From Candidatus Gastranaerophilales bacterium (GTDB taxonomy: Bacteria; Cyanobacteriota; Vampirovibrionia; Gastranaerophilales; Gastranaerophilaceae), in contig CALVBP010000020.1 in assembly GCA_944325825.1 (NCBI GenBank), positions 1 through 33,517 on the forward strand: a stretch of DNA of 33,517 nucleotides, written 5' to 3'. The notes beneath the pieces were generated by a model. The model worked only from the letters and a program-made list of their open reading frames with translations. It was not told the DNA's origin and searched no databases. A program made the translations under genes and the position numbers. Each line of letters opens with the position of its first letter. The stretch's first letter is position 1. Shown here piece after piece: positions 619 through 12,933 of this stretch.

Positions 619-1278
619 CTACTGAACAATTCTCTTATCAATATCAAGCGCTTTTGCATACTTGACTAAAAGCCTATATGCTTTATCAGCCTGTCTTTTA
701 TATGCAGAATAATTTTCATCGCTTTCAGAGGCTATAGAGTTTATCATTGCCTTTGTAATAACAGCATCCTTCATTAATACTTCCAGATGAGGTGGAACAG
801 AAAGTATATCATCTTGATTTTTTAATGTATAAATTTCTTCCCCGTTTGCTGTTTCACCAATTGAAAGTGTAGAATAATCTATCGTAACAATGGATTTTAC
901 AACAGGAGACGGATAAAGAACTATTTTATCCCCTTTAATATAGAATCCTTCAGGTATTCCGCATTTATGCTTTAAACTTTCTGGATTTTTAATTAAATCT
1001 AAGAATTTTGAGTTAAGCTTAACCATATATTTACCATGAGAATCTTTTTTAATTAACCCGTTTGGTAAATCATAAGCACAAGTGCCCGGTATTGTTAAAA
1101 TAACATGGACTCTCTCTCTAAACGGGAAGTCGTAAGATGTGTAAATTTCAGTTATAGCCTTATTCAGGGCTAACACAAGCGAATCTTCAAATTCTTCTTC
1201 CGACGCAGCATCATTGTCATACATCGACCACTCCTGTGATGCCGCTGTGTTGTACAAATCCAGTAATGTTAGTGTCAT
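619..1278 (-). CDS. Putative phage head-tail adaptor (P22 gp4-like position)
   Basis: 219 aa, soluble, preceded by a textbook Shine-Dalgarno AAAGGAGG 6 nt before ATG. The sequence is mostly helical, with a central region (about residues 50-140) rich in beta-type segments and the phrase IKGDKIVLYPSP. Many podoviral and siphoviral adaptor/connector proteins carry this 'x-G-x-I-x-L-x-P-x-P' element between N- and C-terminal helices. Its place after portal, scaffold and coat, and directly downstream of a lysin, matches the P22 order in which the gp4 adaptor follows coat. It would sit under the portal ring to close the filled head. The family call is by resemblance and position. It is the last phage gene visible to the left. 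Confidence 0.55.
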   Translation of the reverse strand: MTLTLLDLYNTAASQEWSMYDNDAASEEEFEDSLVLALNKAITEIYTSYDFPFRERVHVILTIPGTCAYDLPNGLIKKDSHGKYMVKLNSKFLDLIKNPESLKHKCGIPEGFYIKGDKIVLYPSPVVKSIVTIDYSTLSIGETANGEEIYTLKNQDDILSVPPHLEVLMKDAVITKAMINSIASESDENYSAYKRQADKAYRLLVKYAKALDIDKRIVQ

Positions 1279-1293
1279 AAAAACCTCCTTTAT

Positions 1294-1794
1294 TTAACTT
1301 ATAACTTCCGACACATCATAATCCGCAAACTGCTTCATGTAGCTTTCAATACTTGTTCCGAAAGCATCTTTGCTGATGCTTTTACCTCCGCTTTTTAAAT
1401 ATGTTATTACAGCTCCTGCCCCCTTTAAATGAGCACCTGCAAGCAATCCGGACGGTGTTATTTTATATCCGTTAATAATCAAACCTATATATTTATCAGC
1501 ACCGACAGCTTTAAGATATCCCCACTGTTTTCTCTTAAAAACTATTTGGGCATTTTCCTGGGCTTTAGGATTATTCAAAAAATCCTGAATAGAGCAGACC
1601 CCGTCTTTTCCGGTAAACTCCCCCCGCCAGTCATTATTGTAAATTCTTGAGACCTTCCTGTAATATCCTGCATCAACAAGAGCCGATTCTCCCATCTGGT
1701 ATTTACCGGCATAGCCGTATTTATTAAAAGCTTTATAATTTCCGGCAGATTCCCTTGAGCCAAGGTCATTTAAAAATTGCTGAAATGTTTTCAT
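1294..1794 (-). CDS. Phage lysozyme/lytic transglycosylase-like peptidoglycan hydrolase
   Basis: 166 aa with a strong SD (GGGGGGAG). The N-terminus reads LGSRESAGNYKAFNKYGYAGKY (residues about 11-32) followed by QMGESAL. This is the signature of VirB1/SLT-type hydrolases: the Glu of RES is the expected catalytic acid and the G-x-YQMG segment lines the substrate cleft. No signal peptide is present, so it is either a virion-associated lysin that locally opens peptidoglycan during DNA entry or is released by a holin outside this window. Its start codon overlaps the stop of the 68-aa gene by 4 nt, indicating translational coupling. It is followed 15 nt later by the adaptor gene. In P22, gp4 itself has muramidase activity; here the activity looks like a separate gene (inference). 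Confidence 0.75.
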   Translation of the reverse strand: MKTFQQFLNDLGSRESAGNYKAFNKYGYAGKYQMGESALVDAGYYRKVSRIYNNDWRGEFTGKDGVCSIQDFLNNPKAQENAQIVFKRKQWGYLKAVGADKYIGLIINGYKITPSGLLAGAHLKGAGAVITYLKSGGKSISKDAFGTSIESYMKQFADYDVSEVIS

Positions 1795-1997
1795 TGTTCT
1801 CCCCCCTTGTCCAGAATTTTTGATAAAATACTTTTATCATTCTGAATCTTTTCCTGCTTTTTTATCCGGTCTCTGAACTTTTTTCCGTTTTTTTCAAGAA
1901 TTTTATACTCGGCCGGATATTTTGACTTTAATTCTTTTGCAGAATCATCAGGAAGGGAAAAAATATGCCCTGTTGGAATAAATTCAATCTTATACAT
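1791..1997 (-). CDS. Small basic phage protein of unknown function
   Basis: 68 aa with a strong SD (AAGGAGG) 5-6 nt before ATG and a 4-nt overlap with the downstream lysin gene, so it is very likely translated. The N-terminal half (IEFIPTGHIFSLPDDSAKEL) looks like a small beta-alpha domain. The C-terminal half is a highly charged Lys-rich helix. Short proteins of this type between decoration and adaptor genes are common in podoviral and siphoviral head modules, but I do not recognise the family and assign no function. Confidence 0.7.
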   Translation of the reverse strand: MYKIEFIPTGHIFSLPDDSAKELKSKYPAEYKILEKNGKKFRDRIKKQEKIQNDKSILSKILDKGGEQ

Positions 1998-2008
1998 TCT
2001 TTTCCTCC

Positions 2009-2155
2009 TTAAATCAAATCTTTAAGCATTTGGCTAACTTCTTTTTCCGTCATCTCATTGAAAGATTTACCGCCGTATTTCTTCTTCAAAATATCCGGAG
2101 GAGAAATTTCTCCCCAGATTAATTCTTTTTCATCTTGATAGTTTTCATCTGTCAT
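2009..2155 (-). CDS. 48-aa microprotein resembling the scaffold C-terminal coat-binding tail
   Basis: ATG at 2155, stop TAA at 2009-2011, with the SD AAAGGA upstream; the stop lies just ahead of the SD of the next gene (1997), so it belongs to the phage operon. The last residues (FNEMTEKEVSQMLKDLI) match the very C-terminus of the scaffold-like protein encoded at 5099-5749 (FDEMTPKEVDELLERLI). F, E-M-T, K-E-V, L and L-I are shared, 10 of 17 positions, and both end at the stop codon after an upstream PP and a lysine cluster. In P22-type scaffolds the C-terminal helix-turn-helix binds the coat protein. A free copy could modulate assembly; this is inference. Confidence 0.72.
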   Translation of the reverse strand: MTDENYQDEKELIWGEISPPDILKKKYGGKSFNEMTEKEVSQMLKDLI

Positions 2156-2181
2156 AATTCCGTCCTTTCCATATTAACCTA

Positions 2182-2190
2182 TGATATAAT
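2182..2190 (+). promoter_or_regulatory. Extended -10 promoter of the 2197 membrane-protein gene
   Basis: TGATATAAT fits the extended -10 consensus TGnTATAAT. The box ends 6 nt before the ATG at 2197, placing the predicted +1 on or next to the start codon. No recognisable -35 and no SD are present. Confidence 0.55.
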
Positions 2191-2196
2191 TACGCT

Positions 2197-2787
2197 ATGA
2201 AACTTAAGTCTTATTTCAAAAATCTTCCTGATATGTGGAGTGCTAATATTATAGCTATGCTCGGATTTGTGAGCTTTGTTCTTGCAATTATTGCTGCATC
2301 TGTTTCATCCTATTGTTCCGCAAATGTTATTTCATTGCCGCAAACATGCAAGGATGTCTACAGGTTGATTGAAGACTGCATAATATTACACACCTTTTCA
2401 TTTCCGCTAACCTGCGCTCACGCAATTGTTCCCATTATTGTTCAATGTATATTGCTATCTAAGCAGAAACTACAAAATAATATCATATTTATCATAATGA
2501 TAGTTATTACTATTCTTTGCACAATACCGGGGTATAATTTATTTGATTTCAGCCGCGGAGGAGGCATATATATCGCATTCTTACCGATATTCGGCTCTCC
2601 TGTTACAATAATTGCATTCATTATACTTTTTATATTATTTTGTAGGGATTTGAAAAGTAGAAAACAAATACCTGACAGTAAGCATATTACAAACCCTTCT
2701 TATATCAATTTTGTAAATATCTTTTTCTGGTATGGAATTGTTGTGCTGATTCTTGAAGCTCTTCTGCTGGTATTTCTAATTGCATAA
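2197..2787 (+). CDS. Multi-spanning membrane protein, probable phage moron
   Basis: 196 aa with about five hydrophobic segments: residues about 17-37, 65-87, 95-112, 124-148 and 174-195. It ends in a membrane helix. It is the only plus-strand gene inside the minus-strand head operon, has its own extended -10 promoter, and appears to be leaderless (no SD). Those are hallmarks of a moron, a prophage cargo gene expressed from the lysogen. Superinfection exclusion or another membrane role would fit, but no domain is recognised. It runs convergent with the lipase gene, leaving 7 nt between the stops. No clear terminator is seen. Confidence 0.65.
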   Translation: MKLKSYFKNLPDMWSANIIAMLGFVSFVLAIIAASVSSYCSANVISLPQTCKDVYRLIEDCIILHTFSFPLTCAHAIVPIIVQCILLSKQKLQNNIIFIIMIVITILCTIPGYNLFDFSRGGGIYIAFLPIFGSPVTIIAFIILFILFCRDLKSRKQIPDSKHITNPSYINFVNIFFWYGIVVLILEALLLVFLIA

Positions 2788-2794
2788 AATTCCG

Positions 2795-3679
2795 CTAACT
2801 TCCATGTTTCGCGCCGCAGGTACGTACATAATCCCCGACTTTTGTCCCGTCAGAGCGAGTATATCCGCTCACCGTATATGAACCTACGCATTGCGGACCT
2901 GTTGAACTCTCTTTTGCTTTTTCGGCTTTGCTTCGCTTTTTATTAATTGTAGATTTTAAATCCCCTATCTTTTGCCGAATATTATTCTTGAAATTATCAG
3001 CCATTTCTCCGGACAAAAATTCCTTCCCTCGTGTCATATTTGGATGCAAGTTCTTACTTATCTGTTGAACTTTTTCAGGAGTAATTATTTTCCTTTGAGA
3101 CAAATCTTCCATGCTTTCTGCTTCATGGCTGTTTGCGTTTCCGGGTTTTTCAGGTACTGTATAAATTTCTCCGAGATGATTCTGCCCGTTCACCATAGTA
3201 AACATATCTTTTTCATTAACATAGTTTATTACATTATTTTCCTTTAACTTTATTCCGCTTCTGAACATGTCTCTTATCCCGTAGGCATTAAATGTCGCCG
3301 CAAAAACCCCTCTAATGCCGGAAACTATTTCACTGAGACTCCCACCCAGAGAATGACCCGTTACAGATATGTCCATCCCCGGATTCTCCATTACTACTTT
3401 ATCATAAACAGCTATGGCATCCGTTGCCTGTGAAGGAAGTCTGTTTCTTGCCATTGCTGCATCATTTTTAATGTCATTCACTTCATCTGTTCCGCGATAC
3501 GCTATTATTATATCTTTTCCGTTCGACAGAACCTCTGCATGAAAGCCATTATTCTTATTATCCACTGAATCAATTACTTTATATCCGGCGGGCGGCTTTG
3601 AGTTATCCTTGCGATACGCATATATAGAAGCTTGTTTTAATATTTCATGATACCTGGTATCTTCTTTTTTATTTTTCAT
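2795..3679 (-). CDS. Phage-encoded lipase, class 3-type alpha/beta hydrolase
   Basis: 294 aa from the ATG at 3679, chosen because AAGGAAAA lies just upstream; an in-frame ATG at 3739 has no such site. The core shows IIIAYRGTDEVNDIKND (the oxyanion-side strand of Lipase_3/Mbeg1-like enzymes), then VTGHSLGGSLSE with the nucleophile Ser in GHSLGG. A downstream Asp and His are available, but I cannot assign them by eye. Residues about 225-275 are Lys-rich and helical. The C-terminus carries a separate Cys-containing motif (YTVSGYTRSDGTKVGDYVRT), seen as a tail on many phage-associated proteins. There is no signal peptide. A lipase within a head module suggests a virion-borne enzyme acting on the host envelope, or prophage cargo; substrate unknown. 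Confidence 0.75.
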   Translation of the reverse strand: MKNKKEDTRYHEILKQASIYAYRKDNSKPPAGYKVIDSVDNKNNGFHAEVLSNGKDIIIAYRGTDEVNDIKNDAAMARNRLPSQATDAIAVYDKVVMENPGMDISVTGHSLGGSLSEIVSGIRGVFAATFNAYGIRDMFRSGIKLKENNVINYVNEKDMFTMVNGQNHLGEIYTVPEKPGNANSHEAESMEDLSQRKIITPEKVQQISKNLHPNMTRGKEFLSGEMADNFKNNIRQKIGDLKSTINKKRSKAEKAKESSTGPQCVGSYTVSGYTRSDGTKVGDYVRTCGAKHGS

Positions 3680-3727
3680 ACTTTTTCCTTTCTCATGTTC
3701 TTTCTTCTTAAAGAATATTTTCCCGGA

Positions 3728-3750
3728 CGGGCGGAGCAAAGCTCCGCCCG
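3728..3750. other. GC-rich intergenic hairpin upstream of the lipase gene
   Basis: CGGGCGGAGC (3728-3737), loop AAA, then GCTCCGCCCG (3741-3750): a perfect 10-bp stem between the decoration and lipase genes. On the transcribed (minus) strand no U-run follows it, so it is not a typical terminator. Partial termination or mRNA processing/stabilisation are possible. Confidence 0.7.
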
Positions 3751-3768
3751 CTTGGGAAGAAAGATAAA

Positions 3769-4155
3769 CTATTCAACAGGTCTTACACCAGCCCATTTTG
3801 CGACTGCAAAAATATTTCCGGTAAAACCTTCTGCGAAATCTAAATCAATAGAACCGTCAGCTTTTTCGAATCTGGATAAATCCTGAAGCTGAATGGCAGA
3901 AGTCCCTTTGGTTAATTCTATTACAATATCGCCTAACATTGAGTTAGGGTAAGCATCTCCTGCTTTTACGGTTAGCAAAGAATCTGAAGATGTTGTTTCT
4001 ATAATAATAAATAAGGAATTATTCTTATTAGAAAATGCTTCTTCTATAGTGATTCCGTTAGCCTGAGTTACGGCCTTTTTTTCAATAACAATATTAGCAA
4101 CCGATTCTGTATGGTCAAGACTCGGATACTGAACTTCAATAATATCTCTTGTCAT
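3769..4155 (-). CDS. Probable capsid decoration/head-fibre protein
   Basis: 128 aa, SD AAAGGAA, encoded 27 nt after the coat gene. The sequence is beta-rich with alternating hydrophobics (NIVIEKKAV, SLFIIIETT, DSLLTVKAGD, GDIVIELTKG) and ends in a compact beta segment (GNIFAVAKWAGVRP). The length, composition and place directly after coat match small decoration proteins that bind the outside of the capsid. The phrase 'LTVKAGDAYPNSMLGDI' resembles beta-sandwich decoration proteins of many tailed phages. No catalytic motif is visible. Function is inferred mostly from position. Confidence 0.55.
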   Translation of the reverse strand: MTRDIIEVQYPSLDHTESVANIVIEKKAVTQANGITIEEAFSNKNNSLFIIIETTSSDSLLTVKAGDAYPNSMLGDIVIELTKGTSAIQLQDLSRFEKADGSIDLDFAEGFTGNIFAVAKWAGVRPVE

Positions 4156-4182
4156 AAATTATTCCTTTCTATAATTAACTAT

Positions 4183-5073
4183 TTATACAGACAGCTTAGC
4201 AGAAACCTTAACCGTACCTAACATATCGGCTCTCGGAGCACCTACACCATAGAGACCATAACCTTTGTAGCAGGTGTTAAAGTTCTTTTCCGGAGTATAG
4301 AAAGTGGTATTCAAATCTGCTGAAATACCACCGGCAAGAGTCTTGCCTTTAACCCCAAAGAGCGGGTAGAATACACCTGTTTCAGGCTGTGCAATGTTAT
4401 TGGATACAAGAATTTCCCAGCCGCAAAGAGTTCCGATATAACCTTTAGAAATTTGAGCTTTACCGGTTTCAGTATATTTGAGTTCATCCAGTTTTCCCAA
4501 ATAGAATTGATATTCCGGAGGAATTACGCAGAGCATTGAACCATCAGTCCAGTTAGTGTGTCCTTTGCCGTCTCCTCTCTGGAATTTTGCCTGCATATAT
4601 GCAAAGATATCTTTTGCAGTATCTGCCGTAAGTACAATTGCTTCGCCTTCATCATCGAGGTAATGACCTGCTCTTGTGTAAAGATTAGCGTAAGCACTAT
4701 CTACAGCAGCAGCAAATTGTTTAATTGCATCATTAGTGTAATCTTTTGCCAAATCAACCATTTTATCCGGATTATCCTGAGAGTTTTGGAGCATTTTTTC
4801 TTCCATTTCTGAAAGTTCAAAGTGGAATGCTTTTCCTCTGTCAATTTTAACCTTGCAGGTGGAAAGAGTTGCTGCCTCGGCATCTGGCAAATCTCCGCCA
4901 TCATAATCAAACAACTGAACCATTCCGGGCATTGTTACATCAACCTCATCACCTTTGTTGATTGAATTTTTCATTTCTGAATGAGCGAGTTTACCTATTA
5001 CAAGCTCATTGTAAAAATACTTGCCAAATGCTTTAGAAAAAGCATCTGCAATCATTTGTTTTGTAGTTGTCAT
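4183..5073 (-). CDS. Major capsid (coat) protein, podovirus-type
   Basis: 296 aa from the ATG at 5073, which has GAAAGGAAAA just upstream; a longer frame to 5124 would overlap the scaffold gene and lacks such a site. Features of an HK97-fold coat are visible: an N-terminal arm, an E-loop-like stretch around VDVTMPGMVQLFDYDGG, a long spine helix (about residues 93-130, KMVDLAKDYTNDAIKQFAAA), and P/A-domain strands near the end (FNTCYKGYGLYGVGAPRADM). It follows the scaffold gene by 25 nt and precedes a decoration-like gene, the usual order. The assignment comes from sequence character plus context. It resembles capsid proteins of the P22/T7-type podoviral group more than those with a fused protease; no separate protease gene is present. 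Confidence 0.8.
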   Translation of the reverse strand: MTTTKQMIADAFSKAFGKYFYNELVIGKLAHSEMKNSINKGDEVDVTMPGMVQLFDYDGGDLPDAEAATLSTCKVKIDRGKAFHFELSEMEEKMLQNSQDNPDKMVDLAKDYTNDAIKQFAAAVDSAYANLYTRAGHYLDDEGEAIVLTADTAKDIFAYMQAKFQRGDGKGHTNWTDGSMLCVIPPEYQFYLGKLDELKYTETGKAQISKGYIGTLCGWEILVSNNIAQPETGVFYPLFGVKGKTLAGGISADLNTTFYTPEKNFNTCYKGYGLYGVGAPRADMLGTVKVSAKLSV

Positions 5074-5098
5074 CGTTTTTTCCTTTCTTTGAATTGTG

Positions 5099-5749
5099 CT
5101 AAATAAGTCTTTCCAAAAGTTCATCCACCTCTTTCGGGGTCATTTCATCAAACCTCTTTTTCGGCGGAGTAAATGATGTTTTAGAGTTTTTATCATAAGT
5201 CATTGAATCAAGAACTTTTTCGGTCTCATTTTTCGCAGAACGTTCTCTGTCATGTGCAAAGATTCTTGCTGAAACATATTCATCAAGGAGACAAACAAGC
5301 CTATCCATATCCAGATTGTTTCCCAAAACCGTATAAGCTTCTCTAAAAATCTCCTTGAATGAAGGATCTTGAAAATATTCCGGAGTGTTATACTTATCTT
5401 TGTATCTATCCAGATATTCCTGTATTTCACCTGTAGATTTTTTGAATAAGTCAAAAACTCTGCTAACTTCCCTGAGTTCAGAAACATTTTTCCTTAAAGA
5501 ACCCAGCTCAGCAGAACTCACCCCCTGACGTCTTTCAAGTTCTTGATAAGCCTTAGATAAATCTTCAACTGATTTAAATTTACCCAAAATCAAAGCCCCC
5601 GAAGGGTTTTCTGAAATAGATTCTCCTTCTTGAGGATTATGAACTTCCGGCATTAACTCTTCATCACAAACATCTGTTGAGTTTTCGGTCGCTTCCGGCT
5701 CAACATACTGTTCCGATGAAATTTGTGTTTCATTTAAAGTTTCTTCCAT
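5099..5749 (-). CDS. Capsid scaffolding protein
   Basis: 216 aa, strongly acidic N-terminus (residues 1-50, many E/D), a long coiled-coil-prone middle (DLSKAYQELERRQGVSSAEL onward) and a basic, helical C-terminus. That is the standard scaffold layout. SD GGAAAGGAAA lies upstream of the ATG. The last residues, FDEMTPKEVDELLERLI, are expected to form the coat-binding helix-turn-helix by analogy with P22 gp8, and are echoed in a separate 48-aa gene at 2009-2155. It lies between a minus-strand terminator-like hairpin (5801-5830) and the coat gene. No protease domain is fused. Confidence 0.75.
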   Translation of the reverse strand: MEETLNETQISSEQYVEPEATENSTDVCDEELMPEVHNPQEGESISENPSGALILGKFKSVEDLSKAYQELERRQGVSSAELGSLRKNVSELREVSRVFDLFKKSTGEIQEYLDRYKDKYNTPEYFQDPSFKEIFREAYTVLGNNLDMDRLVCLLDEYVSARIFAHDRERSAKNETEKVLDSMTYDKNSKTSFTPPKKRFDEMTPKEVDELLERLI

Positions 5750-5800
5750 AAAAAGTTTCCTTTCCGGGTTTCCCCATTTAATCCTTTAGTTTTCTTGTAT

Positions 5801-5830
5801 TAAAAATAAGGTGCTCAACCGAACACCTTA
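5801..5830 (-). terminator. Terminator/attenuator-like hairpin ahead of the scaffold gene
   Basis: On the minus strand CACC-type stem TAAGGTG/CACCTTA (5824-5830 with 5807-5813), extended inward by two pairs across one mismatch, is followed by UUUUUA. It would stop minus-strand transcripts arriving from the portal/cargo side. I see no good promoter between it and the scaffold start at 5749, so partial read-through or antitermination would be required. Confidence 0.6.
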
Positions 5831-5884
5831 CTAAAAATCCCCGCCAATTTTTTTAACATTTTTTAATATATCTTCAAAAAAGGC

Positions 5885-5913
5885 TTGACAAATTTTCTGC
5901 TGTTAGATATAAT
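5885..5913 (+). promoter_or_regulatory. Consensus sigma-70 promoter of a structured RNA
   Basis: TTGACA (5885-5890), 17-nt spacer, TATAAT (5908-5913): a perfect match to consensus on the plus strand, opposite to the phage genes. The predicted +1 (about G5920) is exactly the first base of a 14-bp hairpin. No plausible plus-strand protein follows. Confidence 0.8.
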
Positions 5914-6017
5914 AATATTGATACTTCCTTTGGAGCCTAGGCTTGTAGTCTAGTGTGTACCAAAGGAAGTATCGCTCTATATATTTTCAAAATTTGGACC
6001 GATTTCGTATTTGAATT

Positions 6018-6026
6018 TGTTATAAT
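6018..6026 (+). promoter_or_regulatory. Second, extended -10 promoter inside the RNA locus
   Basis: TGTTATAAT is a perfect TGnTATAAT. The box ends 6 nt before G6033, the first base of a 12-bp stem. TTGGAC at 5994-5999 is too far away (21 nt) to be a normal -35, so extended -10 recognition is assumed. Confidence 0.55.
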
Positions 6027-6032
6027 GTTATT

Positions 6033-6123
6033 GTTCGCCGTAAGTTCCGGGATAGAATGAGTTCCGTTCCCGGTGGTAACGTTTGATAAGGGTGCACCAG
6101 ACATCAAACACTTACGGACGGAC
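6033..6123 (+). ncRNA. Three-way-junction RNA element
   Basis: Closing stem 6033-6044 with 6111-6123 (GTTCGCCGTAAG with CTTACGG-A-CGGAC): 12 pairs including one G-U, and one bulged A. Hairpin 1: CCGGGA (6047-6052) with TCCCGG (6068-6073). Hairpin 2: GTTTGAT (6081-6087) with ATCAAAC (6103-6109); its loop contains the palindrome GGTGCACC (6091-6098), which could self-pair or mediate loop-loop dimerisation. The closing stem is followed by TTATTGTTGATT, a weak U-tract that could end the transcript. A TTG-initiated 68-codon minus-strand frame overlaps it but has no SD. Confidence 0.65.
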
Positions 6124-6146
6124 TTATTGTTGATTACAGCCAAATA

Positions 6147-6890
6147 CTAATCGGGGTTTTCATAATAATACAAGATTTGATTAGTATCATAATTTACTCC
6201 TATCCCATAGTGATAGGGGAAGTTATGCTTAGGCAAATTTTCGCTTTCCCGATCATTAATAACATAAAATGTAAACCCTTGAATATCTATATTCCCACTG
6301 TAATAACGGTAAGCAACCGCTTTTTCATTTTTACACTTACCATTCTTACAAACATTAATAAATTTATACTTTTTTAACTCATTATCAATAAATTTCCTAC
6401 TTGTATCAAATTTTAAATATAAATCTTCACTTCCAAAAACAGAAAAAATACTTGATTTTACTTCCGCATTTTTTGCTTCTTTAGGAATACTGCGCGGAAA
6501 ATGGAGTGTTTTTGACTGATCAACTTTACTGAGGGCTAGCTTATAATATTTTATTTGATTACATTTATCTTCTACATCACTAATTGAAAGCAAAATCAAA
6601 ATAAAGAAACAAAAAAAGATTTGTATAAATATAATTACAAAACTATTTAGTACAACTAGTAAAAACCGGTTCACAAAAGAAGCTTGCTTACGACCTCGCA
6701 CAAAAATAGCTGATATTAAAAAAATTAATAGAACCGGAAGTAAGAATATAAAACCAAATAATTTATATTTCCATTCAAAACTTATTAAACAGTATATAAA
6801 TGGCATGATACCAAGAATTAATGATATGCAGCATACTAGGAATAGCCAAGGATAATCCTGTTTAAAAATTTTTATACATTTTCTATTCAT
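6147..6890 (-). CDS. Membrane protein, candidate immunity partner of the 315-aa cargo protein
   Basis: 247 aa. Three to four N-terminal membrane helices (residues about 14-34, 40-60, 75-100 with a flanking aromatic-rich FIQIFFCFFILILLS) are followed by a roughly 140-residue soluble domain. That domain has a Cys pair in CKNGKCKN and a C-terminus GINYDTNQILYYYENPD-like (VNYDTNQILYYYENPD). The start ATG at 6890 has no SD, but TTGACA-N17-TAAATT ends 6 nt before it, so it seems leaderless and independently transcribed. It lies immediately downstream of the 315-aa gene and belongs to no known virion protein class. A membrane immunity protein is an inference from the pairing; it may equally be an unrelated moron. 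Confidence 0.55.
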   Translation of the reverse strand: MNRKCIKIFKQDYPWLFLVCCISLILGIMPFIYCLISFEWKYKLFGFIFLLPVLLIFLISAIFVRGRKQASFVNRFLLVVLNSFVIIFIQIFFCFFILILLSISDVEDKCNQIKYYKLALSKVDQSKTLHFPRSIPKEAKNAEVKSSIFSVFGSEDLYLKFDTSRKFIDNELKKYKFINVCKNGKCKNEKAVAYRYYSGNIDIQGFTFYVINDRESENLPKHNFPYHYGIGVNYDTNQILYYYENPD

Positions 6891-6896
6891 GCTGCT

Positions 6897-6925
6897 AATT
6901 TATCAGTTTTATTTACTTGTGTCAA
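6897..6925 (-). promoter_or_regulatory. Strong promoter of the 6890 membrane-protein gene
   Basis: On the minus strand TTGACA (6920-6925), 17-nt spacer, TAAATT (6897-6902), with TGA directly before the -10 (extended -10). The box is 6 nt from the ATG, giving a +1 at the start codon. It overlaps the end of the upstream gene's 3' region. Confidence 0.7.
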
Positions 6926-6929
6926 GCAA

Positions 6930-7877
6930 TTATTCATTATTCAAGTCTATTAATAAATCAAAAACAGAGTAATAGTTTTTATACAAGCCTTTTTCCTGCA
7001 GACCATGACCAAAATTATTTGGAATAGCTTTTAAAATTTCTACAGGAGTTTTTGGATTACGTTTTACAAAATCACTATTATCTATAAATCTACCATGAAA
7101 TACATTATTCTGATCTATATAAGGCTCAATTAATTTAGCATGTTGTATAGAAAAATATCGCTCTGCTTTATCGGGGGTTAAGCCTTTAAATTCAAAATCC
7201 CAATCTCTTATAGTTTTTTTCAAAAGAGATTCCTTATTAGCTTTTATAAAATCTTTCAACTCAGGAGATGATGCAAGTTTTTTAGAAAAATCTGAATTTG
7301 AATTATATAAAACACCTTTTTCACCAGCTTTTACACCATAGTTGTATAAATATTGTTTAGTTATATTTCCTAAGCTGTTTATGTTCTCTATGATTTTGGC
7401 ATTGGGGTTTGATTTTGCTTCTGAGAGGTCATCTACGCCATCAATATACATTTTGGATGCCATAGGCAACACGCTTTTTGTTACCGGATTTCTTATCAGG
7501 AAATCCAATGCCTGTTCCCCCGCAGTCATCTGCGAAATGTTTTTTTCACTAACATTATCAGACTTTAAAATTTTCTGTTTACCACTTATAGGATATTTTT
7601 GCTTCTTTTGAGCATTTACTGCAAAACCTGTTGGTTGAAATTCCGAAGCTTGTGCCAATCGAGAAAACCATCCTTGATTCCCGTTAGAATCTGTTCTTTT
7701 CTCCACATCAGGAGAAAGCTCAAGTTCTTCATCCTCAGGTATACCAATATTTCGATACTGATACACCAACTCCTTTTCCCGCTCTAATAGTTCTTCCAAT
7801 GTCATCCCAAGCATTCTTGCACGAGTATATATATCACTGTTTCCGGTTATACGATTTAAATAATTTTTAAAATTCAT
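6930..7877 (-). CDS. Portal-adjacent cargo protein, candidate toxin-like effector
   Basis: 315 aa, SD GAAAGGAAA. The N-terminus begins with a charged helix (YTRARMLGMTLEELLEREKE). A low-complexity, Lys/Asn-rich linker (about 65-110) follows, then a C-terminal domain of about 200 residues with the distinctive segments TIRDWDFEFKGLTPDKAERY and IEPYIDQNNVFHGRFIDNSD. It sits directly after portal, where many temperate phages place a MuF/minor-head protein, sometimes fused to a polymorphic toxin. It is followed by a membrane protein with its own promoter, the usual toxin/immunity layout. No catalytic family is recognised, so 'toxin' is inference. Alternative: a minor head or ejection protein. Confidence 0.5.
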   Translation of the reverse strand: MNFKNYLNRITGNSDIYTRARMLGMTLEELLEREKELVYQYRNIGIPEDEELELSPDVEKRTDSNGNQGWFSRLAQASEFQPTGFAVNAQKKQKYPISGKQKILKSDNVSEKNISQMTAGEQALDFLIRNPVTKSVLPMASKMYIDGVDDLSEAKSNPNAKIIENINSLGNITKQYLYNYGVKAGEKGVLYNSNSDFSKKLASSPELKDFIKANKESLLKKTIRDWDFEFKGLTPDKAERYFSIQHAKLIEPYIDQNNVFHGRFIDNSDFVKRNPKTPVEILKAIPNNFGHGLQEKGLYKNYYSVFDLLIDLNNE

Positions 7878-7910
7878 AAATTTTTCCTTTCGTCAATTTT
7901 CATAGGGAGG

Positions 7911-7943
7911 TTTATCGGCGCAGCCTGCGGCTGCGCCGATAAA
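7911..7943. other. 15-bp GC-rich hairpin between portal and cargo genes
   Basis: TTTATCGGCGCAGCC (7911-7925), loop TGC, then its perfect complement (7929-7943). It lies 19 nt past the portal stop and about 33 nt before the next start. On the minus strand no U-run follows; on the plus strand the stem ends in AAAAAT. It could act as a processing/stability element separating portal from cargo expression. Confidence 0.75.
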
Positions 7944-7962
7944 AATAATGCCAAATAGAAAG

Positions 7963-9936
7963 TTATTTTTTATTACGTTTTTTGAGCTCTTTAATAATTT
8001 CTTCTAAAGCTTCTTCTTTATCTTCAGAAATTACATCAGGAACAATCTCACCTTGTATTTCAGGTACAGATTCGGCTGCTAAAGGTAAACCTTGCTGCAA
8101 AGCAGAGTTACCCTGTGAATTCTCATTTCTTATTTGAGAGAGCAAACCTGCAAGGACCAACGGATTTAGTCCGTTATTTAACTCATTATTTACCCCGTTA
8201 TTTACTCCCATTCCGGCCAAAAACCTTTCAGGATTATCAACCCCTTTTTGTTCAAAATACCAGATAAAAATTTCCTCAAGATTCAATTGTATATGCTGGG
8301 CAAACCTTTCTACCGACTGAACAAGCATATCTGCCTGTTCGGATTTTAAAGTTGCCATTGAAGAATCCGCATAAGTATATTTATAATCAGCTTGCCTTAT
8401 TGCATCATCAATTTCAATCATTTCCTGCTGATTCTCTTTATTAACAAAAACTCTTTCAACTCCCGATTTAAAATCAGCACAAAGTTTTGCTACTTTTTCC
8501 ACAACGGAAATAATATAATCTTGATTAATAGTATCCACAAGCATTGAAAGTCTTGTCATCTGCCCTTGTGTTTTTGTGTTAATTTCGGTTGCGGTTTTTG
8601 TAGAACTCGGTTCCACCGCTCCGACCATATTAGGGAAAATTCCGGAGACTTCCGCCATCAAATCATTGAGAAATGAAATATCCTGAAGGTAAATATTAGA
8701 ATTAAACGTTAACTGCTGGAAAGCTGCATTTGGAGAAATATTATCGCCATATTCAATAATTTTACCCGGATAAAGTTTGATTTCGTCCTCATCAAAGAAG
8801 CCTTCCGGGGCAAGAAGAGGAGGATTTTCGTTAAGCGCTTGCAAATTACAGGTTCTGTTCATCAAGTCCTCCTGAAAATGAGCAAGTGAAAGCACCGAAT
8901 AAAGCGGGCTTATACCCCGTTTCGTTTCAGGGTCGAGGACAAAAGCACCATAAGAAAACGGATTTATTATTCTTTCATTCTTTCCGAATGCTACAAGATA
9001 TTTCCTTCCCACTACAACTGCATGCCAGTTTTTCAAAAGAGTTCCGTCAGAAAGTTTTAAATCTCCCCAGTGTTCGAGAACTTCAAGGGTGGTACCATTA
9101 ACAACATCTTCCGAATAATTATCTGAGAATCCGGATTTGTAATTCGGGTGAGATGCAGAATTTACCATCCCGTTAATTTCTCTTGCCTGTTCTTCTGTAA
9201 TAGTATAATATTTATTACTTATTATATCAGACGGAGTTTTGTATGAACGGTAAATTTTGGGACATGAATCCCAATTATCAGCTTGAGACGGATCAAAAAC
9301 TATATCAGCAGGATTAACGGGATAAACGTAAGGATTATCATACTTTTTCCTTATATCTACCCAGAAATTCTTACCCTTTTTTATTGCATCAAGTATCCTC
9401 GGAAGTTTTATCACGTCCTGAGAAAACAGTGTTCTGAAAAAGTCTATCGGACGACGATATTCTTCATAGTTCTTTTTCCAGGCAGTAAAAGATATTAATT
9501 CACCATAAAGTAAAGCGTAATCAATAACCTTGTCGCAGGTTCTTTGAAAACCCATTTTCTCAAAAATGTCCACAAGCATAGCTTTTTGTTTATTTGAGGC
9601 ATTGTTGGAGTCGTGATTTTCTCCCGATACGTCGAACATAGAATTAACATTTGCATAAGTATTTCTCCAGATAAAAGCTTTGAGGGTTTGATAAAACATA
9701 AATGTTTTGCACATCTTTACTTTTGATTTCCATTTTTCGTTCTTATCCGAAACTGATTTAAAATCATTTTTAAAAAATATTTCATTGGCAAGTTTAGATG
9801 CCATATCTAAATTGGCAGACCGCTTGGAGTTGAAAGTTACAAATCCGGTTGAAATTCTTTTTACGAGATTTTCCTCTTCCGATTTTGTTAATTGTTTTGT
9901 AGAATTGTCTTTTTCAATAATGTACTCAAATGACAT
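7963..9936 (-). CDS. Phage portal protein, podovirus type
   Basis: 657 aa from the ATG at 9936, which has GGAAAGGAAAA upstream; an in-frame extension to 10074 encodes a hydrophobic stretch and overlaps the divergent gene, so it is rejected. Portal-like signs: an N-terminal helical region, the wing/stem strands VYPVNPADIVFDPSQADNWD and TTLEVLEHWGDL, a helical segment with LAHFQEDLMNRTCNLQALNE and the bound-loop PPLLAPEGFFDEDEIKLYPG, then the tunnel-helix region TATEINTKTQGQMTRLSMLV. The tail after about residue 570 is Asn/Gln-rich and acidic-basic (coiled 'barrel' region), as in P22-like portals. It forms the dodecameric DNA channel and terminase dock. No terminase gene is adjacent upstream, which is unusual. 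Confidence 0.85.
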   Translation of the reverse strand: MSFEYIIEKDNSTKQLTKSEEENLVKRISTGFVTFNSKRSANLDMASKLANEIFFKNDFKSVSDKNEKWKSKVKMCKTFMFYQTLKAFIWRNTYANVNSMFDVSGENHDSNNASNKQKAMLVDIFEKMGFQRTCDKVIDYALLYGELISFTAWKKNYEEYRRPIDFFRTLFSQDVIKLPRILDAIKKGKNFWVDIRKKYDNPYVYPVNPADIVFDPSQADNWDSCPKIYRSYKTPSDIISNKYYTITEEQAREINGMVNSASHPNYKSGFSDNYSEDVVNGTTLEVLEHWGDLKLSDGTLLKNWHAVVVGRKYLVAFGKNERIINPFSYGAFVLDPETKRGISPLYSVLSLAHFQEDLMNRTCNLQALNENPPLLAPEGFFDEDEIKLYPGKIIEYGDNISPNAAFQQLTFNSNIYLQDISFLNDLMAEVSGIFPNMVGAVEPSSTKTATEINTKTQGQMTRLSMLVDTINQDYIISVVEKVAKLCADFKSGVERVFVNKENQQEMIEIDDAIRQADYKYTYADSSMATLKSEQADMLVQSVERFAQHIQLNLEEIFIWYFEQKGVDNPERFLAGMGVNNGVNNELNNGLNPLVLAGLLSQIRNENSQGNSALQQGLPLAAESVPEIQGEIVPDVISEDKEEALEEIIKELKKRNKK

Positions 9937-10041
9937 AATTTTCCTTTCCGGAGCTTTTGCTCCATTTTGTATAGCAAAAATATTTTTTAGAAGGTTTAAA
10001 AATAAGAGCCAGTAAATATAAAAGAAAGTAAGGACAGATAA

Positions 10042-12933
10042 ATGAAAATTCAAGGAATCAATAACACCCCGCATTTTTACAGCATCACAAGCTTTAAGAA
10101 AGACTCAAGCAGAGATGAAAATAATAAAACTATTCAACCAAATGCTCAATATATTACACCTGCAATAAACTTTGGAGCCAGAGTGGACAAGGGTTTAGAA
10201 AGATTTTATGAATTCAATTCCCATAGAATGCCGCAAACTGTTAAAACATATATAGAATCTCTGGGAGATAGGAGTATCCTGTCCCCGCTAATGGCACAAA
10301 GAAATGCATTTGCCAGGCTCGCAGATGTAACCGATGCAAATGAAATAAAAACACTTTTCCCGAAAGAAGATTTATTTAAAAACTTAATTAATCCCGAGCA
10401 AAGTAAAGCTACAAGAGGTATCCTCGGTGTTTACAGAGAAAATAAAGAACTCCTCGATTTATGCAATCAGGGGATTTTGGCGAATAATGAAAATCTTACG
10501 GTCTATCTTGTAAAGAAAATTTTCCTTGAAGGAAAAACTCTGGATGAAATGAACGAAGATTTAAAAAAAGATGCAAATCCTGAATTCCTTGAAATTTATA
10601 ACCAAAAAGAAGAAAGTATTAAAAATAAATCTGCAGAAGGTAAAATACTCAGAAGCTCAACTTTGAAAGCTCTTGGCATTGAGCAGCCTGAAGTTGAATA
10701 CCTGCAGTCTTTAAGATACACAAGGGACGGCTACTCCGACCTTGTTGGAGAAAAGATTTCACAAGTTCAAAGAGCTTTTTGGGAATCAATGCCGGTTGAA
10801 GAAAGAACTGCAAGAGCCAGAAAAAGTGTTGAAAGATTTGAAAAATGGTGGAACTCTCTTACAAGAGACCAGCAGCTTGATAAAATTGCCGCCCAGGCAG
10901 ATGAAATAGAACTGCTTGAGGAATTCAACAAATCTGATTTCGGCAAAACCAAGAGGAATACTGCCGCAAAAACAAATATAAAAGAACACTCTCCTCTTCA
11001 TCAAAAAACATCGGTTACATCAACTCTAAGCAGAGATGATTTATTTAAAATCTGGGCATCAAATAATTTAAAAATATTTACAGCTAATTTAAGCGACCTT
11101 GACAAAAGAATACTTCAAACAAAAAGAACCCAAAATGCAGCTGCACGATGGGAAAATATGACCCCGGCAGAAAAAACAGAATATATTTCCAAATTAAAAG
11201 CCGGAACAGAACCTTTAAAATACGCAATGATAGATGCCTGGAATAATAATCCGGATATTATTGTTGCAATGTCTATATTTTTGAAAAAACGTCAAATTAA
11301 CAAACCTCTTGATGAATTATATTCAAGTATGGAATTCAGCAACTTTATGTCTAAAGCTATGACTGAATTCTGGGAAGAGCATCCGGATTTTGCTATAAAA
11401 CTCGGTTCTTCTATTAAAGATTCTCACCAAAAAATAAAAGAAGCCGTAATAAGCGGTCATTTTCAAGATTTAAAGAATCAAATAATGAACAATAAAAAAG
11501 ACCGAATTAAAAATATTCTGGCTGAAATAAAAAATCACAGAGAAATAAATTTAAATCTTAACGGATTCAGACCCATTGTAAAAGAATTTGCTACAGAATA
11601 TCAAAACAGGCATTCCGAATTTTTAAAATTCCTGCCTGATGAATATCTGCAAGACTTCTTTAATATAGCAAATGAAGAACTTCCGGATAATCAAATTAAA
11701 AGTTGGTTAAAAGTCATAAGAGATGATGATTCTTTGACAGTAGAAGATTTTGATAACATAAATGCAATAAAAAAACATGAATCTAATGATGCAAAATTTA
11801 TGAATCGTGCCCTCGAAGGAGCCCTTGCTGACACATTATACCTCTGCACAGGAAGCCCTGAAGTATTTATGATGTCACAGGCAGATGCCAAAGTCGCATT
11901 ACTCCAAATTGCTGAAGGTTATGATAAAGTTGCTTTATATTCAGAAAAATATGACAGAAGATTTGAACTTCCGGTTCGAAAACATGATTTTGACAGAAAT
12001 ATGATATCAAAACTTTATAACTGGTATAAAACTCCGCTTAATAACTATGAAATCAACTCCATACTTGAACAATTCTTTACTATAAAAACCCCGGACAATA
12101 CTATTAGTAATGACCGCCGGGATACAATACTAAACCTTTGTGAATATATCTTCTCCTACGGACACAGCATATTTATCCCATTTTCTCATATTAACTATCC
12201 GCCGGAAGTAAAGGCTGCATTCGTAAAAAAATTCTTAGACAATCTACCGTCAGATATTCCTGAAGATTCGTTTGCCATCAGAACAGAAACCGTTGCTGAC
12301 TTCCAAAAGGAAGAAAAAATTAAAGCAATTAATCATATTGTTGCGAAAAAATACAGCTTCTTACCAAAAGAAATTTTGGAACTCTATACGTATGAGCTTG
12401 ATAAAATGCTCAGAGCTGTAGAAGACAGAACTGTTAATGATTTTAAATATGTAATTACGGAATATCAAAAAGAAAATGATATACAGTTTGTTAAAAGTAT
12501 TAGATTTAGACGAGAATTATTCAATAGAATTAACACTTTGTACAGCCTTTGCGCAGAACAAACCATAGCCGACATTATTTATAATGCTACCGGTGAACCT
12601 AAAGTTTACGCAATGTCGTTTGAAGAACTCATAGATGCAGCAGAACAACTATCTAAGAAAAACAACCGGGGCAAAACTATAGATGCTGCTTGTTCAATTC
12701 TTAACGGAACAATATCTCTTAAGCTTAAGAATAAATTAAATTTCTATAAGGGTGATAATGCTTATAACAATTACAAAAACGAACTTATTGAATACTTAAA
12801 AGAACTTGAAGACGAAGGAAAACGAAAAGCAGACAAAACAGAACTTTTATACATACTAAATCCGGAAGAATCACAAAAAGAAATAGATTATTATACTCAA
12901 AAAAGAATTGATGCAATGGAAAATTATTTTTAA
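10042..12933 (+). CDS. 963-aa helical repeat protein of unknown function
   Basis: No signal peptide or membrane helix; almost entirely alpha-helical and Lys/Glu/Asn-rich. The N-terminus (MKIQGINNTPHFYSITSFKK ... AINFGARVDK) shares the 'MKI...(I/V)xFxG/A' tag with the 102-aa protein at 21668. There is internal duplication. FLPDEYLQDFF (about residue 532) and FLPKEILELYT (about 772) each precede, by roughly 65-80 residues, the matching segments ADTLYLCTGSPEVFMMS (about 594) and ADIIYNATGEPKVYAMS (about 845). The middle has WESMPVEERTARARK and WENMTPAEKTEYISKLK, resembling short modular helix repeats. Only a weak SD (AAGGA) precedes ATG. It diverges from portal and its stop overlaps the convergent GNAT-like gene by 4 nt. 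A structural or secreted lineage-specific protein is possible; no function assigned. Confidence 0.75.
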   Translation: MKIQGINNTPHFYSITSFKKDSSRDENNKTIQPNAQYITPAINFGARVDKGLERFYEFNSHRMPQTVKTYIESLGDRSILSPLMAQRNAFARLADVTDANEIKTLFPKEDLFKNLINPEQSKATRGILGVYRENKELLDLCNQGILANNENLTVYLVKKIFLEGKTLDEMNEDLKKDANPEFLEIYNQKEESIKNKSAEGKILRSSTLKALGIEQPEVEYLQSLRYTRDGYSDLVGEKISQVQRAFWESMPVEERTARARKSVERFEKWWNSLTRDQQLDKIAAQADEIELLEEFNKSDFGKTKRNTAAKTNIKEHSPLHQKTSVTSTLSRDDLFKIWASNNLKIFTANLSDLDKRILQTKRTQNAAARWENMTPAEKTEYISKLKAGTEPLKYAMIDAWNNNPDIIVAMSIFLKKRQINKPLDELYSSMEFSNFMSKAMTEFWEEHPDFAIKLGSSIKDSHQKIKEAVISGHFQDLKNQIMNNKKDRIKNILAEIKNHREINLNLNGFRPIVKEFATEYQNRHSEFLKFLPDEYLQDFFNIANEELPDNQIKSWLKVIRDDDSLTVEDFDNINAIKKHESNDAKFMNRALEGALADTLYLCTGSPEVFMMSQADAKVALLQIAEGYDKVALYSEKYDRRFELPVRKHDFDRNMISKLYNWYKTPLNNYEINSILEQFFTIKTPDNTISNDRRDTILNLCEYIFSYGHSIFIPFSHINYPPEVKAAFVKKFLDNLPSDIPEDSFAIRTETVADFQKEEKIKAINHIVAKKYSFLPKEILELYTYELDKMLRAVEDRTVNDFKYVITEYQKENDIQFVKSIRFRRELFNRINTLYSLCAEQTIADIIYNATGEPKVYAMSFEELIDAAEQLSKKNNRGKTIDAACSILNGTISLKLKNKLNFYKGDNAYNNYKNELIEYLKELEDEGKRKADKTELLYILNPEESQKEIDYYTQKRIDAMENYF

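Follow-up and report, generated by a model that had tools for sequence, protein, structure and literature searches.

The window analyzed here is a 33,517-nucleotide stretch of contig CALVBP010000020.1 from the 1.85-Mb genome of a Candidatus Gastranaerophilales bacterium (G000 in the following; other G numbers denote related genomes). We propose that its positions 5885–6125 hold two orphan RNAs belonging to new antisense families that are linked to toxins, and on balance we take them to be, most likely, antidotes. The structure of these RNAs, their strand, promoters, linkage to toxins and retention as orphans are well supported by comparison between genomes; their transcription, their action as antidotes and the choice between two mechanisms we infer from the same sequences. 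Whatever their function, the families are new: a scan of Rfam gave no match at the gathering score, what it gave at a lax threshold was at chance level, and we found no description of such RNAs in the literature (open-access library only). A first-pass annotation of the window had reported two undescribed plus-strand structured RNAs in a gene-free gap of about 400 nt, each with its predicted transcription start (+1) on the first base of a stem; it placed them antisense to a phage head operon and connected them with cargo genes. All of this is borne out, 5750–6146 being free of ordinary genes, and the phenomenon proves larger than was reported there. The elements in question are:

5885–5913, plus strand: sigma-70-type promoter of RNA 1, TTGACA-N17-TATAAT, a 12/12 match with TTGACA at 5885–5890, a 17-bp spacer and TATAAT at 5908–5913.
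5920–5973, plus strand: RNA 1, an orphan 54-nt hairpin with a 14-bp lower stem, an asymmetric internal loop and an upper stem.
6018–6026, plus strand: extended −10 element (TGTTATAAT) of RNA 2, with +1 at 6033; the −35 of its relatives is lost here.
6033–6125, plus strand: RNA 2, an orphan 93-nt three-way-junction RNA linked to PBECR1 (100 bits with model R2, in which the window copy was included).
6000–6140, minus strand: remnant of a PBECR1-type toxin, a decayed C-terminal tail (pseudogene fragment) that overlaps RNA 2 and matches the intact protein of G004 at E = 1.2e-9.

The lower-stem arms of RNA 1 (5920–5933 and 5960–5973) form a perfect 14-bp helix, and its fold has a z of −5.4 to −6.9, equalled by none of 200 shuffles. 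The promoter is the single 12/12 TTGACA-N17-TATAAT site in the genome; the reversed control pattern likewise occurs once, so the count alone is no proof. Both hexamers and the +1 region are identical in G000, G010 and G038 while the spacer has diverged, and G038 has an additional, diverged copy of RNA 1 with its own promoter. Across the four copies all 19 pairs hold (100% pairing), four of them via double changes, giving a covariation score that 3 of 500 shuffles reach. Further, a hairpin from genus g44 (G166) has the same length and near-identical pairing at only 32/54 identity, with 7 of 17 pairs doubly changed (0/500 shuffles). The G010 hairpin and the second G038 copy lie about 20 nt past the stop of a cargo gene and are convergent with it; this cargo combines the shared N-terminal domain with a weak match to LPD3, below the curated Pfam cut-off. 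Of the 65 genus genomes, only G000, G010 and G038 have the hairpin at a credible E-value; when 383 genomes of the order were scanned with a pattern, it was recovered only in G000 and G038, and IMG/VR gave no match to it. Short matches to the promoter region elsewhere in the genus and in G078 proved on inspection to be AT-rich chance matches.

In the case of RNA 2, the three-way junction (6033–6123) has a z of −2.9, reached by 0/200 shuffles, which falls to only −1.1 if 6031–6160 is folded. Copies found by BLAST in G004 and G015 pointed to an intact PBECR1 gene of G004 (at least 299 amino acids; PBECR1 match 9.7e-17), and RNA 2 is antisense to the C-terminal tail of that gene. Taken alone, the decayed tail opposite RNA 2 would make the junction a by-product of coding, but homologues from other genera speak against this. 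G142, G146, G130 and G122 have a promoter at the same place with a 17-bp spacer (10–11/12; 9/12 in G122), again with +1 on the stem's first base, and there stems of differing sequence form the same three-way junction. Over nine sequences 98% of the cells are paired and six pairs are doubly changed (17 cells), a covariation score that 0/500 shuffles reach (R2 matches with E > 0.001 were treated as chance). The 93-nt unit is 90–99% identical between genera, among four genomes with differing surroundings, and has sharp boundaries: the non-shared sides drop to about 20–40% identity further out, and non-homologous flanks are at chance level. In G165, one flank is common with G146 and the other with G142. 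Thus, a unit kept while its flanks are swapped indicates that what is retained is the RNA. The gap, then, is gene-free as the first-pass annotation had it but not purely non-coding in origin, given the decayed PBECR1 tail on its minus strand. That annotation had also held that conserved minus-strand coding would speak against an RNA; such coding is present, yet the 93-nt unit and its pairing survive the loss of the frame. The compensatory changes it sought by covariance are found in both RNAs. Dimerization via the palindrome GGTGCACC (6091–6098), which it had suggested, is unlikely, as the palindrome is not conserved.

The overlap with a reading frame raises the possibility that promoter and structures alike are by-products of conserved toxin-tail codons, with the window copy a dead pseudogene. 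The stretch is indeed coding in intact relatives, and hairpins on the sense strand necessarily mirror those on the antisense strand. Nevertheless, we give this explanation hardly any credence, since copies outside any long frame retain both promoter and fold, and the compensatory changes of the window copy alter residues. The strand asymmetry points the same way: read antisense, the lower stems contain 40 G.U as against 3 A.C pairs, and for 22 of 24 the more stable fold is that of the antisense strand. Together, the G.U excess and the better antisense folding argue that the structured molecule is the antisense transcript.

In relatives, RNAs like the two of the window show a recurrent geometry, namely −35, 17 bp, −10, 6 bp and then the first base of a stem, with the RNA antisense at the toxin-domain end of phage-associated polymorphic-toxin genes. 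PBECR1 goes with the three-way junction and the LPD3-like domain with the hairpin, and more generally toxin types tend each to have their own RNA fold. G142 is exemplary in this regard: it has three toxin cassettes with a common N-half and C-half and differing toxin domains, and at each toxin/C-half junction there is an antisense promoter followed by a strong toxin-specific fold. Two G142 cassettes are 26 nt apart, a spacing into which an immunity gene cannot fit. A search with the N-half yielded 38 cassettes, encoding proteins of about 300–740 amino acids, that likewise share the N-terminal part and exchange toxin domains. Their best antisense promoter scores 12/12 in 5 and 11/12 in 17 (hence at least 11/12 in 22/38, with a spacer of 17 in 20), as against a sense-strand control in which none exceeds 10/12 (0/38 at 11/12 or better) and control open reading frames (ORFs) with 5/152 at 11/12. 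Most genes with the C-half have the promoter about 157–224 codons ahead of their stop, and several that lack the C-half have it 60–105 nt past the stop. For the majority of these genes, the promoter-adjacent RNA out-folds almost every other antisense window within the gene. A separate observation concerns a lipase-like effector of G142 (L214:9401-10492), which has the conserved C-terminal part of the nuclease cassettes and no antisense promoter above 10/12. Cargo lacking the conserved C-half (L049:3-902, L047:2333-3544 and L048:2409-3593) ends in a similar short motif (VIENILKRFGIGK, LIENILRKLGYGRW, MENILKLLRYIR), possibly a particle loading signal.

At least three groups of hairpins follow one plan, with a lower stem of about 12–14 bp, an asymmetric internal loop and a short upper stem. 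In the third RNA type 10 of 17 pairs are doubly changed, and its covariation score is reached by 0/500 shuffles. A model of this group, built without the promoter sequence, found 15 further places, most of them without a long antisense frame; 13 of these show a promoter scoring 10/12 or more at spacer 17 and gap 6, compared with a random background of 0.35%, or 7 of 9 if only new sequences are counted, several of the 15 being identical to training sequences. The result bears on a DNA-level alternative, in which the hairpins would be recombination sites of the cassettes, akin to integron attC, and the promoters incidental. Such sites would account for hairpins at cassette ends, and for sharp unit boundaries with swapping flanks. 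They would not account for a promoter geometry that stays fixed in a promoter-blind test, nor for several unrelated folds including a three-way junction; further, the attC core boxes (RYYYAAC...GTTRRRY) are absent at the hairpin ends, which read GATACTTCC/GGAAGTATC. We consider this alternative highly improbable.

The RNAs are mostly laid out as single units, each with its own promoter, and copies with promoter persist, alone or in arrays, where the toxin frame is gone (small arrays in G122, G130, G193 and G181). One such locus in G122 (L213:7749-8067) has three consecutive orphan RNAs (two hairpins plus a three-way junction), all with promoters of their own, next to a tyrosine-recombinase-like gene. 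The window itself is an example of such retention: beyond the decayed tail, G000 has no match to either cognate toxin (PBECR1 or LPD3-like) and none to the N-half family of the LPD3-like cargo, while the short N-terminal family detects only the resident effector described below. The orphans bear on a reading of the RNAs as regulators rather than antidotes, which would dampen expression of the cargo or keep it insulated from the head genes up to the time of particle formation. This is favored by the convergent position that the RNAs have in the window's genus, with cargo on one side and head genes on the other, and by runs of T5–T7 after the hairpin in several non-coding copies. We nonetheless regard it as unlikely, because orphans persist without a toxin frame and the same RNAs occur inside toxin genes of other genera that lack such an operon order, which also speaks against the cargo-versus-capsid switch of the first-pass annotation as their main role. 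The packaging-type RNA mooted there fares no better, as the RNAs track toxin genes and not packaging or head genes. A terminator for the minus-strand cargo was considered and rejected, the U-run being absent on the minus-strand side.

Antidote RNAs ("immunity RNAs"), resembling type I antitoxins by position and perhaps type III antitoxins by structure, remain the best explanation: the RNA sits in the place of an immunity gene, varies with the type of toxin and outlasts it as an orphan, and is read as an antidote on these grounds. Briefly, we envisage the following. Toxins that a phage-like particle delivers would have to be harmless in the cell that produces them. In relatives, each RNA would be read from its own strong promoter opposite the toxin gene, beginning where the toxin domain ends, would fold compactly and would keep the toxin from acting in cassette-bearing cells. 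This could happen by a type I-like route, in which the RNA pairs with the toxin message, and/or by a type III-like route, in which it binds the toxin itself, for PBECR1 a predicted RNase. Orphan RNAs would guard against related toxins from kin or neighbors, as orphan immunity genes do, and those of the window would be antidotes left behind after toxin loss.

The antisense placement favors pairing with the message, as in yonT/SR6, while direct binding is conceivable, given folds that covary and are specific to the toxin and given that PBECR1 is a predicted RNase. Taken as the sole route, as a sub-case of the antidote reading, direct binding would make the RNAs type III-like decoys or substrate mimics, and the antisense position would merely keep toxin and antidote together in cassette exchange. 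A shape conserved beyond sequence that differs by toxin type fits this, as do orphans that retain the fold and the prediction that PBECR domains are endoRNases (PMC5512222). Binding does not require, however, the invariably antisense orientation at toxin genes, for which the sense control above offers no parallel, and the layout is unlike the upstream tandem repeats of type III loci. We are inclined to doubt that binding is the whole mechanism. As side observations, PBECR1-like parts exist in Helicobacter phages, and IMG/VR yielded no relatives of the PBECR1 part.

Several points weigh against an antidote function. The evidence is sequence throughout, and transcription itself is read out of it. 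The window's RNA 2 has no −35 (best 8/12); the same RNA in relatives has TTGACT/TTGATA-N17-TATAAT, and the G000 copy may be a dying element. No antisense promoter of at least 11/12 was found in 16 of the 38 cassettes, and a rule extending such promoters to all cargo of the window's N-terminal family was abandoned, since its scores equal those of the sense control. The Fisher comparison of cassettes with control ORFs (3e-14) is uncorrected for relatedness, and our P values generally overstate independence, cassettes and RNA copies being related. The LPD3-like domain is a weak Pfam match, so that the toxicity of this cargo is presumptive. Finally, most RNA-bearing cassettes have no adjacent immunity protein gene in a filtered scan, which tested this weakly as it missed the gene at 6147–6890 of the window.

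The surroundings of the two RNAs comprise the following features:

7963–10074, minus strand: portal protein (SU10_portal, 9.7e-13; phrog_332).
6930–7877, minus strand: resident polymorphic effector, with an N-terminal domain common to cargo proteins in 24 of the 65 genus genomes.
6147–6890, minus strand: membrane protein, candidate protein-type immunity gene; an ORF downstream of the effector with a hydrophobic N-terminal half.
5808–5829, minus strand: separate hairpin before the scaffold gene; its stems differ in G004, G010 and G015, all still pairing.
5099–5749, minus strand: putative scaffold protein, named by its position before the major head protein; no family match.
4183–5124, minus strand: major head protein (phrog_267, 6.9e-17).

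The window's first 10 kb are thus a phage-derived cluster with an SU10-type adaptor and portal, a major head protein and a putative scaffold gene. The full cluster (619–10074), with portal, putative scaffold, head protein, adaptor, baseplate-like gene and variable cargo inserts, suggests a domesticated, toxin-carrying particle. It looks to be a long-standing resident from the breadth and near-constant single copy of the major head protein, present in 51 of the 57 other genus genomes searched and nearly always single. The putative scaffold gene adjoins it throughout the genus, and variable cargo occupies the space between portal and scaffold genes. In the window, no antisense promoter was found for the resident effector; the membrane protein downstream of it, to which Pfam and PHROG give no significant match, is perhaps its immunity protein. 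The hairpin at 5808–5829 has a wholly different stem in G004 and G015 that nevertheless pairs, and its G.U wobble falls on the minus strand; it probably terminates the cargo unit upstream. Elsewhere in the window, a lipase gene (2795–3739; Mbeg1-like/Lipase_3) related to the lipase-like effector of G142 lies between baseplate and head genes, and a plus-strand ORF of 963 amino acids beside the portal (10042–12933) is conserved in relatives and has no Pfam match.

More broadly, and quite tentatively, these cassettes might represent RNA immunity against phage-delivered polymorphic toxins, in which many toxin types have a structured antisense RNA of their own that is exchanged with the toxin as one cassette, and orphan arrays form a heritable record of toxins to resist. 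If true, this would explain how some phage effector genes can exist without an immunity gene, and the gut Gastranaerophilales, hardly studied at the bench, would gain a testable phage-derived weapon system.

Known systems resemble the cassettes in part. In polymorphic toxin systems the gene for the immunity protein adjoins the toxin domain, and polyimmunity loci gather orphan immunity genes (PMC3482391). The shared N-terminal half, the exchangeable toxin domains, the antidote beside the toxin domain and the orphan antidotes have counterparts there, but the candidate antidote here is an RNA, whereas that account describes immunity proteins and does not mention antisense in its main text. As the immunity known in these systems is protein, RNA antidotes in the cassettes would add an RNA arm. 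Likewise, PBECR1 occurs in the polyvalent phage effectors, whose genes accompany those for virion parts, but their description (PMC5512222) has no RNA partner and mentions neither antisense nor noncoding RNA. Type III toxin–antitoxin (TA) systems such as ToxIN (PMC5086642) resemble the cassettes in having a structured RNA linked to an endoRNase toxin, which here is predicted for PBECR1, the other toxin types being unassigned. Type III antitoxin RNAs, however, are sense-strand repeat arrays before the toxin gene, whereas those here lie on the opposite strand at or after the toxin domain, mostly as a single hairpin or three-way junction with its own promoter and not as a tandem repeat. Finally, the type I TA systems with a 3′-overlapping antisense RNA, yonT/SR6 and bsrG/SR4 of the SPbeta prophage, as outlined in PMC5848175 and PMC6562991, join a phage-linked toxin to a short RNA that has its own promoter and is antisense to the 3′ end of the toxin gene. 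The antisense promoter and RNA at the toxin-domain end match this arrangement; by contrast, type I toxins are small hydrophobic peptides, while those of the cassettes are large polymorphic effectors (~300–740 amino acids) whose RNA can lie within the reading frame, has folds that covary by toxin type and occurs in orphan arrays.
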